From a virus, in IMG/VR virus record IMGVR_UViG_3300009155_000068, positions 1 through 61,479 of that record: DNA of 61,479 nucleotides. One strand, 5' to 3'. The position numbers and the translations under genes are program-made. The notes beneath the pieces are model-generated. The model saw only the letters and a program-made list of their open reading frames with translations, did not search any database and was not told the origin of the DNA. Numbering within the stretch: the stretch's first letter is position 1; each line of letters starts with the position of its first letter. This document shows positions 1 to 13,483 of the stretch, one piece after another.

Positions 1-259
1 CCGTGATGTATGGGAAAGCCTGTATCAGAATATTAACCTGCTGTTCATTGACGAACTTATTGACAACGGCTTGGACGCCAGCGGTGTTGAAAGTGCGCTG
101 GCAGTCTTAAAGAAGATGGCACGTGAACGCAACAAGAATATCTATCTAATCAGTCACAAAGACGAATTAATTGGTAGGGTAAACAATGTTCTTAAAGTAA
201 TTAAAGAAAATGGATTTACCAGTTACGATAATGATCTTGAAATATTAAATGAGCAGTAA
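1..259 (+). CDS. 46: Recombination endonuclease subunit gp46, C-terminal part
   Basis: The reading frame is open from base 2, so only the last 85 or so residues of the protein are present. They carry the ABC-ATPase Walker B segment (NLLFIDELIDNGLD) and the downstream switch histidine region (YLISHKDEL), as in the C-terminal lobe of SbcC/Rad50-type proteins. T4 gp46 works with gp47 in resecting DNA ends for recombination-dependent replication. The identification rests on these motifs and on the T4-like context. The start and the coiled coil lie outside the window. The stop overlaps the next gene by 11 bases. Confidence 0.85.
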   Translation, partial: RDVWESLYQNINLLFIDELIDNGLDASGVESALAVLKKMARERNKNIYLISHKDELIGRVNNVLKVIKENGFTSYDNDLEILNEQ

Positions 260-508: not shown

Positions 509-934
509 ATGACATGGTACTTCCAAAATGAAATCGTTGAAACACTGCCCGAAGATTGTGTTGGATTTGTGTATCTAATTACAAATAATATCACAGGCAG
601 AAAATATATAGGCAAGAAGTTAGCCAAATTTGCAAAAACAACATATAAAACAGTAAAATTAAAAAACGGTACTAAAAAGAAAAAGAAGATTAGATCTAAG
701 ATTGATTCAGATTGGCGCGACTACTACGGGTCAAATCTAGAATTAAGCAAAGACGTAGACACACTAGGCAAAGAAAATTTCAAACGAGAGATAATGTTTT
801 ACTGTAAAAGTAAATCAGAATGTTCTTACATAGAGGCCAGAGAACAATTTACACACAAAGTTCTAGAATCAAAAGATTATTACAACGGACAAATTTCAGT
901 CCGTATACATGGCTCACACATATTAAAATCATAG
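509..934 (+). CDS. GIY-YIG type endonuclease, SegE-like
   Basis: This 141-residue protein has the start of a GIY-YIG nuclease domain at residues 18-37: GFVYLITN, then GRKYIGKK, matching the two beta strands bearing the catalytic tyrosines. A Lys-rich stretch and DWRDYYGSN follow, then a Glu-containing helix (ECSYIEAREQF) that could provide the metal-binding glutamate. The size and arrangement resemble the free-standing Seg-type homing nucleases of T4. It directly follows the recombination genes and directly precedes a long hairpin-rich region without genes. Whether it is an active homing nuclease or a fixed phage gene cannot be told from the sequence. Confidence 0.7.
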   Translation: MTWYFQNEIVETLPEDCVGFVYLITNNITGRKYIGKKLAKFAKTTYKTVKLKNGTKKKKKIRSKIDSDWRDYYGSNLELSKDVDTLGKENFKREIMFYCKSKSECSYIEAREQFTHKVLESKDYYNGQISVRIHGSHILKS

Positions 935-1370
935 GCTCCTAAGCGGTATAAGCAAGCACAAGCTAAAGTCGTGTGCCCACGCCAACTCGATAATAAGAGG
1001 GACGGAAATCTCTAGCCGCCAGAGTACTCAATCACTACCCGAAAGGATGATGATAGCAAAGCCCTTGCTGTTTGATTGTTTTAGAAATAATAGGCGAAAA
1101 GAGGGAGAAAAACCCACGTTTGCTGGCATGTTAGCGTATGCCTGTAGACCGCCGTCGTAATAAAGACTAAGCTCGAGGTACCGGACGACCGCCTCTGTAA
1201 TGCTTTAACGCTAAGTGACATAAGTGCAACTCAGATAATGTCCATTTCTTTGCCCGGTCAGGGCAAAGTGTGACTGAACAATCTAGATAATATCTTAAGT
1301 GCTTCGCACAATTACTTCTAGATAAATGCATTGAGCCTAGCGAAATGCAAGTGAGCGTAAGCTCACTTTT
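932..1370 (+). ncRNA. Candidate structured non-coding RNA
   Basis: These bases hold no convincing ORF on either strand. The two ends are complementary: TAGGCTC (932-938) pairs with GAGCCTA (1333-1339). Inside are GCACA/TGTGC (956-960/972-976), CAATCA/TGATTG (1029-1034/1073-1078) enclosing AGCAA/TTGCT (1055-1059/1065-1069), and GGCAT/ATGCC (1125-1129/1138-1142). Further on are GAGG/CCTC (1175-1178/1192-1195) around CGG-ACGA-CCG, GACAT/ATGTC (1217-1221/1238-1242), an 8-bp hairpin CTTTGCCC/GGGCAAAG (1248-1255/1261-1268) and GTGC-TTC-GCAC (1299-1309). A terminator closes the region. I found no tmRNA, RNase P or group I intron core motifs. No promoter is obvious, so the RNA may be processed from the gp46 transcript. 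The strand is inferred from the terminator. Confidence 0.5.
1349..1370 (+). terminator. Rho-independent terminator after the hairpin-rich region
   Basis: AAGTGAGC and GCTCACTT form a perfect 8-bp stem with a GTAA loop. The stem runs into TTTT. A late promoter begins two bases further on, so this separates the upstream transcript from the next gene. Confidence 0.75.
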
Positions 1371-1371
1371 A

Positions 1372-1378
1372 ATAAATA
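1372..1378 (+). promoter_or_regulatory. T4-type late promoter
   Basis: ATAAATA is followed by AACTATAATTC. The T4 late promoter is TATAAATA, with transcription starting about 6 bases past the octamer. This predicts a leader of about 15 bases for the gene at 1399, with no clear Shine-Dalgarno sequence. Confidence 0.65.
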
Positions 1379-1398: not shown

Positions 1399-2283
1399 AT
1401 GAAAATTAAAGAACTTATCTCAGAAGCTGCCCCAATTAATTTTGTACAATGGTCGCCTAGTAATCCTAGTCTACGTGGCCCTTCGTCTCAGATAAGAGTA
1501 GCTCAAAAAAGTGCGGTTGCTAAAGGTGTACAAAGTGGACGTATTTTACTTAAAAGAGTAGATAGATTTTTGGCCAAAGGTCGATATGCTCCTATAATTA
1601 AATCTAAAAGTGCATTCTGGCGTAATAGTGGTAGGCTTATGCGCCTATGGACCCTAATAGGATTTGCCGGGTTAATTGAATCGTACTATGACAAGAAGTC
1701 TGCATTGGCAATTATGCGAGGATTACCTCCAGACGACGAAGATTATATGAGCGAGGATGATTATAATATTGCGTCTCGTCTGGCACTTGAATCACTGGCT
1801 GTGGAAATATTACTATCTCAAGGATTTGTGAGACTCCTACAGATGATGAAGATAGGCAAATGGGTAGTAACACTAGCTGGAGCATTTGGTAGTGCAGCAT
1901 CTCTAGGCACTAGTTTTGCTTTATTTCTAGCATCAGAATATGCTATGATTAAATTTCAAGATTGGTTAAAAACTGACAGTGGTCAAAAAATAGTTTCTTT
2001 TGCAGTGGCCTGGTGTGTAGATCCTATTCTTGGAGATCAATTTAAATTCATGGAACCATTTACTGCAAAACTTGGAGAGTTTGTCGGCCTAGCTAAATCA
2101 AAACCCAATGTAGTTGATCAACCAAATAAAGATAAACTAACTCCAGATGATAAGAAATCAAATTCTGGACAAGCAGGACAAGCAGAAAGACCAGATACTA
2201 CTATTCCAACACCTAATGTAGCACCAAGTTACAAAGGTGATCCCAATGAGTTAACTAAACGTGCGCCAATGCCGTTTACTTAA
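1399..2283 (+). CDS. Putative head-internal membrane-active protein with prohead-targeting-like N-terminus
   Basis: This 294-residue protein starts MKIKELISEAAP. That resembles the short capsid-targeting sequences of T4 internal proteins, which end in a (I/L)-x-E site cut by gp21 (here ISE, residues 7-9). A basic segment (residues 30-80) is followed by hydrophobic stretches near 83-97 and 153-185 that could span or insert into a membrane. The C-terminal 80 residues are polar and rich in Pro, Asn and Asp. The gene has its own late promoter and converges with the minus-strand gene at 2280, overlapping it by 4 bases. No known family is recognised. A role as a packaged, possibly ejected protein is inferred only from the N-terminus and the hydrophobic segments. 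Confidence 0.6.
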   Translation: MKIKELISEAAPINFVQWSPSNPSLRGPSSQIRVAQKSAVAKGVQSGRILLKRVDRFLAKGRYAPIIKSKSAFWRNSGRLMRLWTLIGFAGLIESYYDKKSALAIMRGLPPDDEDYMSEDDYNIASRLALESLAVEILLSQGFVRLLQMMKIGKWVVTLAGAFGSAASLGTSFALFLASEYAMIKFQDWLKTDSGQKIVSFAVAWCVDPILGDQFKFMEPFTAKLGEFVGLAKSKPNVVDQPNKDKLTPDDKKSNSGQAGQAERPDTTIPTPNVAPSYKGDPNELTKRAPMPFT

Positions 2284-2504
2284 ACTAAGGGCATCTGAGT
2301 TTTTTCTGTAATTTCTATATTTTCTTTAACAATTTTACTCAGTATTTCTCTATCTTCATAAGAATATATGTAGAGTAAGTCATTAATTGTGACTCCCCCT
2401 CTCATATACCAACTGAGTCTAAATAAATTTTCTTTAAAACTTTTTGCGCTTGAGTCGATGCTGACTAGATATGGTTCTATGTCAGAGTTGGGCAGTTCGA
2501 TCAA
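2280..2504 (-). CDS. Small conserved protein paired with gp26, possible tail assembly chaperone
   Basis: This is a 74-residue ORF. Its predicted TTG start overlaps the gp26 stop codon (TTGA), which indicates translational coupling. The core (RLSWYMRGGVTINDLLYIYSYEDREILSKIVKENIE, residues 29-64) is amphipathic and I associate it with small proteins next to gp26 in T4-like phages. Its position between the baseplate hub gene and the tape measure gene suggests a role in hub or tape-measure assembly (gp51-like or chaperone). The exact function is not established from the sequence. An internal ATG at residue 34 would give a much shorter product that loses part of this core. Confidence 0.6.
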   Translation of the reverse strand: MIELPNSDIEPYLVSIDSSAKSFKENLFRLSWYMRGGVTINDLLYIYSYEDREILSKIVKENIEITEKTQMPLV

Positions 2505-3325
2505 GCGTCTACGAAAAAATTTGATTGATCCATCTGAATAGCCACTGCGCTGTCATGCTCGCAAGATTCGCATTTTACCTGCATGTCGGGCACACGCCAT
2601 GTTTGATTATTTTTTTCTATCTGTTGTTTAATAGCATCAAACATACTTTTTTCTGAATTAATAATCCATTCTGCAATAAACGCCCGTTCGTCAACTACAG
2701 TCTGTGGTGCTTGTACACTTTCAATGCTGGCAATGTATGATTCATTTTGAATTATGGCTAATTTTTCATAGAGCTCTGCAATTATTTTAGACTTAGCATC
2801 TTCATCTTCTAAATTTAAACTTTGTCGAAGTTGTCTTTGAAGTTCAAAATTCTTTAAATTAAACTCAGTCATTGTTTTATAATCCAACGGTCTAATTGAT
2901 ATAGTTAACTCATCAATAGTAACCTTGTTGTCATACTTACATTTGCTAAAATGATCAATCAATGACATTAAATCAACATTATACTCATTCTCAGTTCCGC
3001 AGTTAGGACAATTATGCTCAATGCCCATGTTGCTACCATAGGTAGCAATACGTATAGCCACTAGTAGCATGTCTAAGTCTAAATTACAAATTTCCCAAGC
3101 ATTTTTAATGTTTGGGACACAACTTTGTATGACTCTAATAGTAGCTTCTCCATTCATTAGAGCATCAGGTGTTTTCAACAATAGTTCGTCCATGCCGGTC
3201 ATTGACATAACGGGCAGTTGTCCTATGGCATTGTCCACTGCATCTCCGCTATAGTACATGCCTTGACTGGGTAGCGTGATATAAATTTTTGGTTGACGAA
3301 AATATTTCTGTAGCGGATTATTCAT
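2501..3325 (-). CDS. 26: Baseplate hub subunit gp26-like
   Basis: This 274-residue protein resembles the T4 gp26 baseplate family (T4 gp26 has 208 residues). The N-terminal part (KIYITLPSQGMYY ... MTGMDELLLKTPDALMNGEATIRVIQSCVP) is the typical signature. Two Cys pairs, CPNC near residue 105 and CESC near residue 254, probably bind a zinc ion. It starts at ATG with a good GAGGT site 6 bases upstream. It is transcribed leftward from a perfect TATAAATA on the minus strand at 3362-3355. It is the first gene of a two-gene minus-strand operon, divergent from the tape measure gene. Confidence 0.8.
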   Translation of the reverse strand: MNNPLQKYFRQPKIYITLPSQGMYYSGDAVDNAIGQLPVMSMTGMDELLLKTPDALMNGEATIRVIQSCVPNIKNAWEICNLDLDMLLVAIRIATYGSNMGIEHNCPNCGTENEYNVDLMSLIDHFSKCKYDNKVTIDELTISIRPLDYKTMTEFNLKNFELQRQLRQSLNLEDEDAKSKIIAELYEKLAIIQNESYIASIESVQAPQTVVDERAFIAEWIINSEKSMFDAIKQQIEKNNQTWRVPDMQVKCESCEHDSAVAIQMDQSNFFVDA

Positions 3326-3386: not shown

Positions 3387-5714
3387 ATGTCATTAACTCA
3401 ACAGGATCTATTAGACGTACTGCGAACAGCTAACCGCCAGGGCTATTTTGCTAGTATGGGTGGAGGTGGAGGTGGTGGTGGAGGAGGTGGTGGAGGAGGT
3501 GGTGGAGGAGGTGGCCTCAATAATACAGTAGAAAAAGAAACTAATCCTGCCTTAGAAAAATTAGGAAATATTCTTAAAACTGGTGCTGGCGAAATATATG
3601 ACGGATTTAAAAAGATTTCTGATCAAAGTTACACTGTTGCTGATGCCAGTAAAGGCCTAGCAAATGTATTTGATACTATGGGCGGCACTGCTGGTCATGC
3701 AGCAGCTACGGTCATAGGCGATCTTGGAAAATATGGACAAGAAAGTGTAGAAAAATTTCGAGAAGTTAGCAAGTTTGGGGCTAGCTTTGGCAATGATGCT
3801 ATAGGATTTAGAGCAGGAGCAGCACAAACTCGTATGAGTTTTGATGAATATACTAATTTTATATCTAAGAATAAAGATAATCTAGTGGGACTTGGTGGAA
3901 CAGTTACTGAAAGTGCTAAATCATTTAATAAGTTTTCTAAAGATTTTATGGATACCGATGTAGCAGATAAGATGAGATCCATGGGTTATTCTACTGAAGA
4001 ACTTAATACTGTGTTAATAGGCACTATGGCCACACAACGATTAGTGGATCGCAGCAACGCAGATGCAAACAAAGTTGCAGTACACGCCGCAGAAGATCTA
4101 GCCACACAGATGGATGCAGTGGCCAAGATAACTGGTAAGAGTAGACAAGAACAAGAAGAAGCAATGAAAGCTAGGGCCACTGATGCACAATATCAAGCCA
4201 TGGAAAAACTATCATTAATGGGACTTAATGAGAAAGAAAAAGCAGCTAGGGCAGCATCCATTGCACAAATGCAGGCCAGCGCACACTCACTGGGACCAGC
4301 AGTTGAAGGTGTAGTCAAAGAAATGGCCACAGGCGGTGTTCGAAGCAAAGAAGCCAGCGAACAGATGGCAGCACTTGGTCCTGCTGGCAAACAATTACAA
4401 GACGCTGTCAACGCTAGTAAAAGTGCTAAAACAGAAGAAGATAAAATCCGTGCTGATAGATTAATGAAAGATGCTGAAGCAGCAATTATAGCACAGCAGA
4501 ACAGTAAAGGATATTTAGAAGCTCAACAATTAGGTATAGGCGCATTTAAAACCGGTGCTGAAAGTACTATGAGTTATAGTAAGTCTATGGATGCTACTCT
4601 TATAGAGATGAATTCTAGTAGATCAGAAGGTAACAAATTAAACTTAGCCAATGCAGAAGATGCTAAAAAAGTTAAAGCAGAAATGGATAAGCAGGTTAAG
4701 AATGAACAAGAAAGTAAAGATAAAGCTGGTAAGAAGATAGAAGGCGCAGCTACTACTGATGCTATTATTAAATTTGAAAGTCGTGCCAAAGATGCAGGAG
4801 CAGCCATTAATGCAAATCTAGTGGCACCATTAAATGAAGCACTGGGTAAGAGTATTAGAGAGTATGCTGAGAAAACAGATCCAAAGACTGGAAAAGCTCG
4901 CGGGAATCCTTTAGATAACGTTCAAGATGGTGTAAGTTATAGATCTAGAGTAGAAGCACCAATTGGAGCATTGACTAATTCAATACTGGGCGGACAAGAT
5001 ATAGCTGCTCAACCTAAGAAAATCACTGATAAAGATACAGGAAAAACATATCAAAAACCCAGAGAACTTGAAGCATTTAAGAACAAAGAATCATTAACTA
5101 ATACAATAAGTAATTTGACTAAGATGAATGTAACTGATTTAACAGTATTAGGAAAATTTAATCCCGGAGTAGGTAGACAGAAAGGCTCGCTAGGAGAAAC
5201 TGGTAGTTTATTTGAAAACTTTGGCTCTGGTACATTGGCCATGCTGCACGGAAAAGAATCTGTGGTAACAGAAGAGCAAATGAAATCTTTAATGACAGGA
5301 ATTCAAAGTTCTAATGTAGAAGGCATGCTTAAAAATCTAACCAGTAGTGTGGGATCGGTTAAAGGTGAATCAGGAATTGATATTGGTAAGATGTCTAAAG
5401 ATTTTAGTACTAGTATTAGTTCAATTGCACCAAAAATAGCATCTCCGTCTATGAATGGACTAAGAAAAAATGTAGACGGCCCAGGCAAGGCGGAATTAGA
5501 AATGGCTGCAATGGGTATGACTCCGTCTAGTGCTAACACTAAATCAGAAAGTACAACTCCTACTAAAGAAAAAACCATATCTGATTTGGACGACAAGCTA
5601 GATCAATTAAATAAGACTATGATGCAATTGGTTGCAATATCAGCACAGACTGCTGAAAATAGCGGTAAACAGATCAAAGCCACTAAAGGGTTGGGCGGAA
5701 ACTTATTCGCTTAA
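3387..5714 (+). CDS. 29: Tail length tape measure protein (gp29-like)
   Basis: This 775-residue protein is Ala-, Lys- and Glu-rich and mostly helical, with no Cys-rich or enzymatic motif. It sits beside gp26, as expected of the tape measure/hub protein (T4 gp29, 590 residues). The N-terminus has an uninterrupted run of 19 glycines (residues 25-43). The middle (about 150-470) is a long helical region. The C-terminus (SDLDDKLDQLNKTMMQLVAISAQTAENSGKQIKATKGLGGNLFA) is an amphipathic helix typical of this group. The length predicts a tail longer than that of T4 if the usual length-per-residue rule holds. Translation would start after a leader of about 36 bases with a weak GGT-type site. Confidence 0.75.
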   Translation: MSLTQQDLLDVLRTANRQGYFASMGGGGGGGGGGGGGGGGGGGLNNTVEKETNPALEKLGNILKTGAGEIYDGFKKISDQSYTVADASKGLANVFDTMGGTAGHAAATVIGDLGKYGQESVEKFREVSKFGASFGNDAIGFRAGAAQTRMSFDEYTNFISKNKDNLVGLGGTVTESAKSFNKFSKDFMDTDVADKMRSMGYSTEELNTVLIGTMATQRLVDRSNADANKVAVHAAEDLATQMDAVAKITGKSRQEQEEAMKARATDAQYQAMEKLSLMGLNEKEKAARAASIAQMQASAHSLGPAVEGVVKEMATGGVRSKEASEQMAALGPAGKQLQDAVNASKSAKTEEDKIRADRLMKDAEAAIIAQQNSKGYLEAQQLGIGAFKTGAESTMSYSKSMDATLIEMNSSRSEGNKLNLANAEDAKKVKAEMDKQVKNEQESKDKAGKKIEGAATTDAIIKFESRAKDAGAAINANLVAPLNEALGKSIREYAEKTDPKTGKARGNPLDNVQDGVSYRSRVEAPIGALTNSILGGQDIAAQPKKITDKDTGKTYQKPRELEAFKNKESLTNTISNLTKMNVTDLTVLGKFNPGVGRQKGSLGETGSLFENFGSGTLAMLHGKESVVTEEQMKSLMTGIQSSNVEGMLKNLTSSVGSVKGESGIDIGKMSKDFSTSISSIAPKIASPSMNGLRKNVDGPGKAELEMAAMGMTPSSANTKSESTTPTKEKTISDLDDKLDQLNKTMMQLVAISAQTAENSGKQIKATKGLGGNLFA

Positions 5715-5717
5715 ATA
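5711..5717 (+). promoter_or_regulatory. Late promoter abutting the portal start codon
   Basis: TTAAATA ends 7 bases before the ATG of gp20 and follows AATACACT-type sequence like the T4 late consensus. The predicted transcript starts within two or three bases of the ATG, and no Shine-Dalgarno sequence is visible. Confidence 0.6.
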
Positions 5718-5724
5718 ATACACT

Positions 5725-7452
5725 ATGTCATGGAAAAAATACTTTTCGCCTGTACCTACTGGTAGTAGTACCAGTAATGTTACATCAATGAACTCTGCTA
5801 GTAAAGCAGGGCCAGCACGAACAAACTACAGTTCATATCTACCAGATATCTACTCTGGCAGTCCAAATCGTGTTGAACGTTATCTACAGTATGATACTAT
5901 GGACAGCGATCCAGAAGTTAATGCAGCCTTAGATATTTTAGCTGAATTTTGTACACAGCTATCAAAAGAAAACAACACTCCGTTTACTGTACAATGGCGC
6001 AGTAAGGCCACTAACAGTGAAATACATATCCTAAAAGAATACCTACAACAGTGGACAAAACTACAAAAGTTTGACACTAGAATGTTTCGTATCATTAGAA
6101 ATATTTTCAAATACGGTGATGGATTCTTTATCCGTGATCCAGAGAATCAAAAATGGTTCTATGTTGATTCAGGTAAAGTTGTTAAGATCATTGTCAACGA
6201 AAGTGACGGGAAAAAGCCCGAACAATATGTTATCCGTGACCTAAATCCAAACTTTATGAATTTAGTTGTAACACAGATTACACCCAATATTCATCAAACA
6301 ACCAACGGTGGATCTAGTTATGTAGCAGGCGGCGGCGCCGCACGTGGAATGACTGGAGCATATCCTACTCAAGCAGGAACACGTTTTAGTACAGGTGAAC
6401 AAGAGCTGGCAGTTGATGCTAGACACGTGATACACCTAAGTCTATCAGAAGGATTAGACAACAACTATCCGTTTGGTAATAGTCTACTTGAAAACGTTTT
6501 TAAAACTTATAAACAAAAAGAATTGCTAGAAGATGCGATTCTAATCTATCGTATACAACGTGCGCCAGAGCGCAGAATTTTTTATATTGACGTGGGAAAT
6601 ATGCCCAGTCACTTGGCCATGAGCTTTGTTGAACGAGTTAAAAATGAAATTCATCAACGCAGAATTCCTAGCCAAAGCGGTGGCGGCAACAATGTTATTG
6701 ACAGTGCCTACAACCCATTGAGTATCAACGAAGACTACTTCTTCCCGCAGACAGCAGAGGGTCGTGGATCAAAAGTTGACACACTTCCAGGTGGTACTAA
6801 CCTAGGTGAAATTGACGATTTAAAATACTTTACCAACAAGTTGTTCCGTGGTTTAAGAATTCCAAGTAGCTATCTGCCAACAGGTGCAGATGACAGCCAA
6901 GCACAGTATAACGATGGTCGCGTTGGCACAGCATATATTCAAGAACTACGTTTTAACAAGTACTGTGAACGTTTACAAGCACTAGTTTCAAGTATTTTTG
7001 ACCAAGAATTTAAAATGTTCTTGTACTCAAAAGGTGTAAACATTGACTCATCATTGTTTGATCTTAAGTTTAATCCACCAATGAACTTTGCTAGCCAGCG
7101 CCAAGCAGAGCTGGACGGCAATAGAATTAATACATTTAACACAGTACAGGCAGTGCCCTTTATGTCAAAACGTTTTGTACTAAAACGATTCTTAGGATTA
7201 ACCGACGAAGAAGTTGCAGAAAACGAACGTCTATGGGCAGAAGAGAAAGGTGAATCTATACCTGTACACACTGACAGCGCCGGAGAATTACGTTCAGCAG
7301 GTCTAAGTCAAGCCGGTATTGAAGCAGATATTGAAGCCAGCGCACCAGAAGGTGCACCTGAAGATATGATGCCACCTGAGCCAGGTGCTGGAGGCGGAGC
7401 ACCAATGCCAGCACCCACAGGTGCACCGGCTACTCCACCGCCGGCAGCATAA
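5725..7452 (+). CDS. 20: Portal vertex protein gp20
   Basis: This 575-residue protein matches T4 gp20 (524 residues) in overall plan. It has the segment PDIYSGSPNRVERYLQYDTMDSDPEVNAALDILAEFCTQ near the N-terminus, and EGLDNNYPFGNSLLENVFKTYKQKELLEDAILIYRIQRAPERR. The canonical core LPGGTNLGEIDDLKYFTNKLFRGLRIPSSYL lies near residues 352-383. The C-terminal 50 residues are Pro-, Gly- and Ala-rich and probably disordered. As the portal dodecamer it is the nucleus of prohead assembly and the docking site for terminase. It follows the tape measure gene and heads the head operon. Its start has no ribosome binding site but lies at the predicted late transcription start. Confidence 0.95.
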   Translation: MSWKKYFSPVPTGSSTSNVTSMNSASKAGPARTNYSSYLPDIYSGSPNRVERYLQYDTMDSDPEVNAALDILAEFCTQLSKENNTPFTVQWRSKATNSEIHILKEYLQQWTKLQKFDTRMFRIIRNIFKYGDGFFIRDPENQKWFYVDSGKVVKIIVNESDGKKPEQYVIRDLNPNFMNLVVTQITPNIHQTTNGGSSYVAGGGAARGMTGAYPTQAGTRFSTGEQELAVDARHVIHLSLSEGLDNNYPFGNSLLENVFKTYKQKELLEDAILIYRIQRAPERRIFYIDVGNMPSHLAMSFVERVKNEIHQRRIPSQSGGGNNVIDSAYNPLSINEDYFFPQTAEGRGSKVDTLPGGTNLGEIDDLKYFTNKLFRGLRIPSSYLPTGADDSQAQYNDGRVGTAYIQELRFNKYCERLQALVSSIFDQEFKMFLYSKGVNIDSSLFDLKFNPPMNFASQRQAELDGNRINTFNTVQAVPFMSKRFVLKRFLGLTDEEVAENERLWAEEKGESIPVHTDSAGELRSAGLSQAGIEADIEASAPEGAPEDMMPPEPGAGGGAPMPAPTGAPATPPPAA

Positions 7453-12153: not shown

Positions 12154-12185
12154 CATTGTACGACTTATAATTATGTAAGTTTTAT

Positions 12186-12220
12186 GCGGAAATCCAACCG
12201 CGTATGGCCTAGAACGCCAT
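12186..12220 (+). other. Two hairpins in the 5-prime leader of the 12242 gene
   Basis: GCGG/CCGC (12186-12189/12198-12201) and ATGGC/GCCAT (12204-12208/12216-12220) lie between the late promoter and the TAAGGAG ribosome binding site. They may stabilise an abundant late mRNA. No known riboswitch is recognised. Confidence 0.4.
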
Positions 12221-12241
12221 CTTTCTTAAGGAGAAAATAAA

Positions 12242-13483
12242 ATGGGACGTCCTCTAAACAAAAAATATTTTGGTAACCGAAACATCGGTACCGGTGGCAA
12301 CCAAGTTGGTGGCAATAATTCAAACAATCAAAACTATGCCGATGACCGTATTGGCGGTGAAGGTGTAGCCAGCTATGGTACAATCGTAGCAGGCTCAGGT
12401 TGGACAGCAACTCCGACAGTTACATTCAGCACACCGAATATCCCAGGCGGTGTTAGTGTTGCTGGTACAGCACATTACAAAGCATTATCAGCCGCAGTCG
12501 CAGTGGGCGGAACAACAGCTTACCCTGTTGGCACAGTAGTAGGTGTTACTGGCGGTTCAACTTTTACTGTGGCTACATTAGCAGGTGCTACCACACTTTC
12601 AACAGTGACTATTGGTACAACAGCAAACCTAACATTTTCTACAACTACACTACCAATTGCAGTTGGTACATCAATTTTAGTCGGAGGCACTGACACAGAA
12701 CCTTGCGGACTAATACCATCAACATACTATGTTTCTGCTAGCCCAGCACCAACCGCTACCGCATTCACACTAACAGACACGTTTGCTAATGCCGTTGCTG
12801 GTACTAATAATCTTGGCGCAACAACTGCTGGAGCTACAACTGGTTTGACATTTACAACACGTAGTGGTACAGCACCTGCAGGTGTAGTAGCAACTGTAAC
12901 TACAACCGCCGCCGGTGATCGTACAACATTTGCCGCAACACCACTAGCTACAACTAACACAGCGAGCGCAACAGGCCTAACATTAAATGTAACTTATGGA
13001 TTGTTAAGCATTGTGGTAACAGAAAAAGGTTCTGGTTATACAGCACCAGCAGATGCCGCAGTAACTTTTGGTGGCGCAACTGGTGCTGCCGCAACAGCAG
13101 TATTAACAACTGATAGCGGTAACATTGGTTCAGCAACTAATCAAGAAAACGCAATCATTATCCGTGCTAATACAGGTAACGAAGGCGCTAACATTTCTGA
13201 TATTATTCGTCAAGTTTCTGGTCGTCGATATAAAGTTATATCAGACGGTACTATTGCAATTTGCAAATTAGTTGCCGACGATACCCCAGCACTTCGCGAA
13301 GCATACATTAAAGCAACAGATGCTAATGGTAATACATATTATGTTATGAAATTAACAGCTCGCAAAGCAACATTAACTCAGTGGACAAACAATGAAACAA
13401 CTTGGTTGTTTGCCACAGGTGCAACTGCTCCGTGGTCATTTACTTCAACAGCAAATGGTCGTGTAATTATTGAAAACGCTTAA
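12242..13483 (+). CDS. Virion structural protein, beta-rich, with GSGY module
   Basis: This 413-residue protein starts MGRPLNKKYFGNRN, a beginning I associate with structural proteins of T4-like aquatic phages. The middle is Thr/Ala/Gly-rich and beta-structured. It includes a GSGYTAPADAAVTFGGATGAAATA module near residues 266-289 and a degenerate copy near 50-80 (GSGWTATPTVTF). The last 120 residues (ISDIIRQVSGRRYKVISDGTIAICKLV ... TWLFATG) form a distinct, less repetitive domain. It has a very strong ribosome binding site and a structured leader, which suggests high expression, as for a capsid decoration or major surface protein. That role is inference. Confidence 0.7.
   Translation: MGRPLNKKYFGNRNIGTGGNQVGGNNSNNQNYADDRIGGEGVASYGTIVAGSGWTATPTVTFSTPNIPGGVSVAGTAHYKALSAAVAVGGTTAYPVGTVVGVTGGSTFTVATLAGATTLSTVTIGTTANLTFSTTTLPIAVGTSILVGGTDTEPCGLIPSTYYVSASPAPTATAFTLTDTFANAVAGTNNLGATTAGATTGLTFTTRSGTAPAGVVATVTTTAAGDRTTFAATPLATTNTASATGLTLNVTYGLLSIVVTEKGSGYTAPADAAVTFGGATGAAATAVLTTDSGNIGSATNQENAIIIRANTGNEGANISDIIRQVSGRRYKVISDGTIAICKLVADDTPALREAYIKATDANGNTYYVMKLTARKATLTQWTNNETTWLFATGATAPWSFTSTANGRVIIENA

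Follow-up and report, generated by a model that had tools for sequence, protein, structure and literature searches.

The window, a stretch of 61,479 nucleotides of viral DNA (IMG/VR record IMGVR_UViG_3300009155_000068), is part of a T4-like phage, and the features discussed here are listed in Table 1. The left end holds the end of a gp46/SbcC-like gene, followed by a gene for a SegE-type GIY-YIG endonuclease and then by an interval, from the SegE stop codon (934) to the next ORF (1399), in which the ORF listing contains no gene, as a preliminary description of this DNA had pointed out. Genes for a T4 baseplate protein and a T4 portal lie to the right; the nearest relatives of the portal occur in jumbo phages, Phosso and Atu_ph07 among them, with identities of at most 53%. 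The ORF immediately downstream of the interval (1399–2283, + strand) encodes a 294-residue late protein with the N-terminus MKIKELISEA, which we take to resemble the leader that targets internal head proteins of T4 to the capsid; a similar start, MKTFKQLFES, is present in contig L226, which carries a distant relative of the RNA described below. A second structured RNA in the same phage is the Rfam freshwater-2 RNA (RF02980) at 12163–12244 (+ strand; 69.9 bits, gathering cut-off 49.9), directly 5′ of an ORF at 12242.

Table 1. Genes, RNA elements and signals at the left end of the window.
Feature	Position	Strand	Evidence or remarks
gp46/SbcC-like gene, C-terminal end	2–259		
SegE-type GIY-YIG endonuclease ORF, directly 5′ of the RNA	509–934	+	Pfam PF19835, E 1.2e-32
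Full-length structured RNA (5′ end approximate)	940–1370	+	Full-length homologues in >170 viral loci; + strand covariation
Polynucleobacter-1 RNA (RF01718), known 5′ third	951–1081	+	81.6 bits, gathering 37, full model 1–141
Hairpin P4 with 7-nt pairing loop	1118–1149	+	Double-sided changes in all 11 pairs; 92.1% paired
PK2 5′ strand, P4 loop UUAGCGU	1131–1137	+	Double changes in each of the 7 pairs; 98.3% paired
PK1 5′ strand (GUYGU/GUCAU)	1154–1158	+	99.4% paired; covariation E 0.0036
Helix P5 (1169–1172/1202–1205 + 1175–1178/1192–1195)	1169–1205	+	Covariation E 5e-6
PK1 3′ strand (ACRAC/AUGAC)	1185–1189	+	Pairs with 1154–1158
PK2 3′ strand ACGCUAA	1208–1214	+	Pairs with 1131–1137 in P4 loop
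Twin heptamer copy 1 (RSAURAW, here AGAUAAU), 5′ flank invariant ACUC	1233–1239	+	Identical to copy 2, 116/118
Hairpin between heptamers (CUUUGCCC/GGGCAAAG)	1248–1268	+	96.9% paired, mostly invariant
Twin heptamer copy 2 (AGAUAAU), 5′ flank UCU	1285–1291	+	Identical to copy 1 in later set, 51/51
Intrinsic terminator hairpin (1349–1368) and U-run closing the RNA	1349–1370	+	Several pairs covary, E 1e-4 to 0.1
T4-type late-promoter-like AATAAATA	1371–1378	+	TATAAATA exact at same place in 26/181 relatives
T4 baseplate protein	2501–3325	−	
T4 portal	5725–7452		

The gene-free interval had been proposed to hold a structured RNA of a new class, and a scan of all Rfam families shows that this is so in part. 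First, the whole model of the Polynucleobacter-1 RNA matches the 5′ third well above its gathering cut-off (Table 1), and the same family matches all 20 of the relatives scanned; this RNA was listed in 2010 from Burkholderiales and fresh water, with no function assigned (Weinberg et al., PMC2864571). Secondly, conservation and covariation do not stop at the 141-nt boundaries of that family and run on to about position 1370, and the 3′ two thirds of the RNA are without an Rfam model, yet are better conserved than the 5′ third. Compared with the Rfam entry the window RNA is about 290 nt longer, adds two pseudoknots, twin heptamers and a terminator, is phage-borne, and adjoins a SegE gene. The 5′ third is thus a known class, whereas neither Rfam nor the literature searched contains the remainder of the RNA, its pseudoknots and heptamers, or its linkage to SegE. 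We hold with high confidence that the element is the full-length Polynucleobacter-1 RNA, a stand-alone structured RNA of about 430 nt belonging to T4-like jumbo phages from fresh water.

The same scan gave no match to the models of GOLLD, ROOL or OLE, so that the earlier suggestion of a GOLLD-like or ROOL-like variant receives no support from Rfam; GOLLD and ROOL are likewise large pseudoknotted phage RNAs without an assigned function, but have no detectable match to the window RNA in sequence or structure. ARAGORN detected neither a tRNA nor a tmRNA, no Rfam group I or group II intron family matched, and no gene is interrupted, in agreement with the earlier failure to see hallmarks of these elements. 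SegE is a GIY-YIG protein, and GIY-YIG enzymes ride with introns in T4, so a group I intron or a SegE homing cassette might be considered; its probability is close to negligible given the lack of an intron family hit and of an interrupted gene, and the finding that the SegE–RNA module has a single syntenic location, with gp46 on one side and the baseplate and portal genes on the other.

Relatives were gathered as 80 viral contigs by way of the SegE protein, and further ones with two DNA patterns taken from the 3′ half of the RNA; nearly all are uncultivated contigs. Profile searches recovered the RNA at full length (~930–1370) in nearly all of the gathered contigs, and in about 180 distinct viral contigs altogether, some of them larger than 300 kb. 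About 50,700 isolate phage records contained no DNA match, nine complete isolate genomes searched with a model of the core yielded nothing except one chance-level match, and the RNA was not found in plasmids. The exact pattern gave one genuine hit in bacterial genome contigs, in a Bacteroidetes MAG (L203, a contig of 4.5 kb that is likely to be phage DNA); seven other pattern hits fail the profile or match over 32 bases only. A second subtype (L023, L059, L070, L071 and L076) retains SegE and the core with a different 5′ domain, and the twin motif is also present where the contig extends that far. Clear but more distant relatives, L226 and L281, have the core without the twin motif and without an adjacent SegE gene; we note an HNH-like ORF near the L226 RNA, at 5584–6312 on the opposite strand. 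In Sinorhizobium phage Phosso (L351) a gene-free stretch of about 1 kb (2127–3140) occupies a comparable place before the portal region and contains a sub-threshold match to the EGFOA RNA (29 bits, E 0.0046), and is perhaps another large jumbo-phage RNA.

The proposal of a structured RNA is borne out by strong covariation on the + strand. The RNA folds with lower energy than shuffled sequences (z = −2.5); because the − strand folds equally well, the strand is assigned by covariation and not by energy. Stop codons interrupt all three + frames in 118 of 118 homologues. Covariation among these 118 distinct homologues, in sequence-based alignments, was assessed against a tree-based null that was custom-written and is approximate, with rough E-values, and supports pairs on the + strand in three regions: the segment known to Rfam, the newly described segment, and the terminator. 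The named structure comprises 39 pairs with two crossing pseudoknots; counted over all pairs in 68 sequences, 96.5% of cells form standard pairs, and 28 of the 39 pairs have changed on both sides, with 349 double-changed cells compared to 84 in shuffles. Its covariation score is 0.437, against 0.171 in shuffles and at most 0.09 in slid controls, which are only 37–46% paired. PK1 (1154–1158/1185–1189), in which C-G/U-A swaps occur in 28 of the 68 sequences, crosses helix P5 (1169–1178/1192–1205), and the P5 region holds the invariant GGUACCGG..ACCGCC core. Complementary ends had also been pointed out, and TAGGCTC (932–938) and GAGCCTA (1333–1339) do exist in this sequence; however, most pairs of this closing helix are not conserved, being kept in only 26/115, 24/106, 14/114 and 25/114 sequences, and the complementarity is probably a chance match. 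Within the Polynucleobacter-1 part, positions 1038 and 1048 form a non-canonical covarying pair that alternates between U-C and C-U (82 versus 36 sequences), perhaps a tertiary contact.

The core also resembles a second orphan family, cow-rumen-2 (RF02947). Of 31 Polynucleobacter-1 records, 28 have a weak match of about 9–23 bits at the site of the core, and in 27, of up to 346 kb, it is the best match of the record. None of the matches exceeds 23.2 bits, far short of the gathering cut-off of 66 bits. In the reverse search, a model of the RNA core has a single match in a 411-kb contig, which is a cow-rumen-2 site (E 0.008), and none in three other contigs. Both RNAs have the core order CCGCC–PK1–AGC–GUACNGGAURACC, whereas cow-rumen-2 has no SegE, no twin heptamers, and a different 5′ domain. 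From these sequence similarities the two cores are probably related. The 411-kb viral contig (G036; L206) contains three cow-rumen-2 copies above the cut-off, and downstream of one of them lie a TATAAATA late promoter and a late gene.

The strongest non-complementary covariation connects two short segments in the 3′ part, NA-CUC-RSAURAW-G and NA-UCU-RSAURAW-A. The seven-base words they contain are identical within the same RNA in nearly all homologues (Table 1; the later set was obtained with another search pattern), and in 221 of 224 loci overall with overlapping loci counted, and eight variants occur. Because kin sequences are not independent and shuffle controls overstate significance, we report the sharing of changes on the branches of a tree built without the heptamer columns. 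About 42 heptamer changes are deduced, nearly all on the same branches in both copies: 22 and 23 changes at position 1 with 22 shared, three in each copy at position 2 and seven in each at position 5, all of them shared, and 11 and 10 at position 7 with 10 shared. Directly 5′ of the word, copy 1 has CUC and copy 2 has UCU without exception (176/176), and gene conversion is thus no explanation for the identity of the words. The copies are 47–61 nt apart, and this variable spacing argues against one rigid duplex site.

The words have no evident partner inside the RNA. No third segment covaries with them among the 118 homologues, tandem or third-site pairing was not found, a hairpin closed at −3/+7 round each heptamer has a folding probability of 0.01–0.02, and folding calculations show no clean hairpin loops presenting them. 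Neither sense nor antisense copies exceed chance in the window, in 179 loci, or in one 345-kb phage contig, and allowing for a wobble-tolerant GGG flank gave no partner beyond chance. These results bear on two alternatives. GOLLD, ROOL and OLE form homo-oligomers (PMC12286853), and this RNA, also large, pseudoknotted and phage-borne with a similar ecology, could form an RNA-only assembly of that type in which the twin words are equivalent contacts in a symmetrical particle; we think this quite unlikely, as pairing between molecules would require a further segment, complementary to the words and covarying with them, and none was found; nor is there an Rfam hit to any of the three families. The heptamers could instead act as DNA, as two binding sites of a single protein from phage or host, and fall inside an RNA gene by chance, since same-sequence direct repeats with a coevolving reader would yield covariation by identity. 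This is very unlikely: the words lie inside a covarying RNA and before its terminator, further copies are not enriched elsewhere, and the ACUC and UCU flanks are copy-specific and invariant.

Of the 130 loci that were found by RNA sequence alone and are long enough to judge, 128 have a SegE gene on the same strand immediately 5′ of the RNA. The distance from SegE to the RNA deviates from its median by no more than 100 nt in 97% of loci; for the gp46–SegE and RNA–baseplate intervals the corresponding figures are 8% and 7%. This near-constant upstream gene and tight gap indicate that SegE and the RNA travel as a unit. Such a near-absolute, tight, same-strand order of nuclease then RNA, together with the conserved GIY-YIG residues of SegE, raises the question of whether the two form a ribonucleoprotein, with SegE an RNA-guided or RNA-dependent nuclease and the heptamers helping to pick the target. 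A comparable layout is that of IS607 TnpB, whose gene is followed directly by an RNA derived from the orphan Rfam family RAGATH-18 (PMC11061315); TnpB differs in being RuvC-type and transposon-borne, and the likeness is one of gene layout. We consider a SegE ribonucleoprotein unlikely. A coevolution search of the heptamer columns against SegE residues gave no outstanding coupling, SegE homologues occur without the RNA in L066, L073 and isolates, the distant relatives L226 and L281 have no adjacent SegE, and the heptamers vary little for a guide. The fuller claim, that this is the first phage-borne RNA-dependent GIY-YIG nuclease, with an RNA bearing two identical, jointly evolving recognition words, is a little less probable still.

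A terminator followed at once by a late promoter had been noted at the right end of the interval. The terminator is strongly supported by covariation, and the promoter by its presence in many relatives, with 58 near-matches in addition to the exact ones in Table 1 against a background of 0.001; the window itself carries the near-match AATAAATA and not the exact TATAAATA. With a late promoter and late genes coming next, the RNA could be a leader that regulates the following late gene in cis. We regard this as highly improbable, because the terminator closes the RNA ahead of the late promoter, and because the gene that comes next is not a conserved one (a homologue of orf294 is found in one locus), which speaks against a cis role on it.

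Taken overall, the best explanation has in our estimate slightly better than an even chance, and is that of a stand-alone phage RNA that acts in trans and meets one putative partner at two sites. The RNA would be transcribed together with SegE and released from that transcript as a 3′-UTR-derived RNA, and its pseudoknotted core would be a scaffold presenting the two RSAURAW words, both of which would meet one and the same partner. The two-site trans mechanism, taken by itself, is tentative, and we put it somewhat below even. We lean somewhat towards a nucleic acid and away from a protein as the partner, since single-base changes in the words are frequent and free, and since the copies differ consistently at four positions (CUC/UCU and G/A), in each case by a transition, which G-U wobble to a single partner would tolerate. 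The putative partner is probably not phage-encoded.

Two orphan Rfam families, known so far as fragments with no assigned function, appear to be parts of a single large superfamily of phage RNA. The pair of words evolves by identity and not by complementarity, a pattern rarely described in RNA, and the full-length RNA offers features through which its function can be tested: a constant nuclease gene next to it, a pair of interlocked pseudoknots, and the co-evolving seven-base words.
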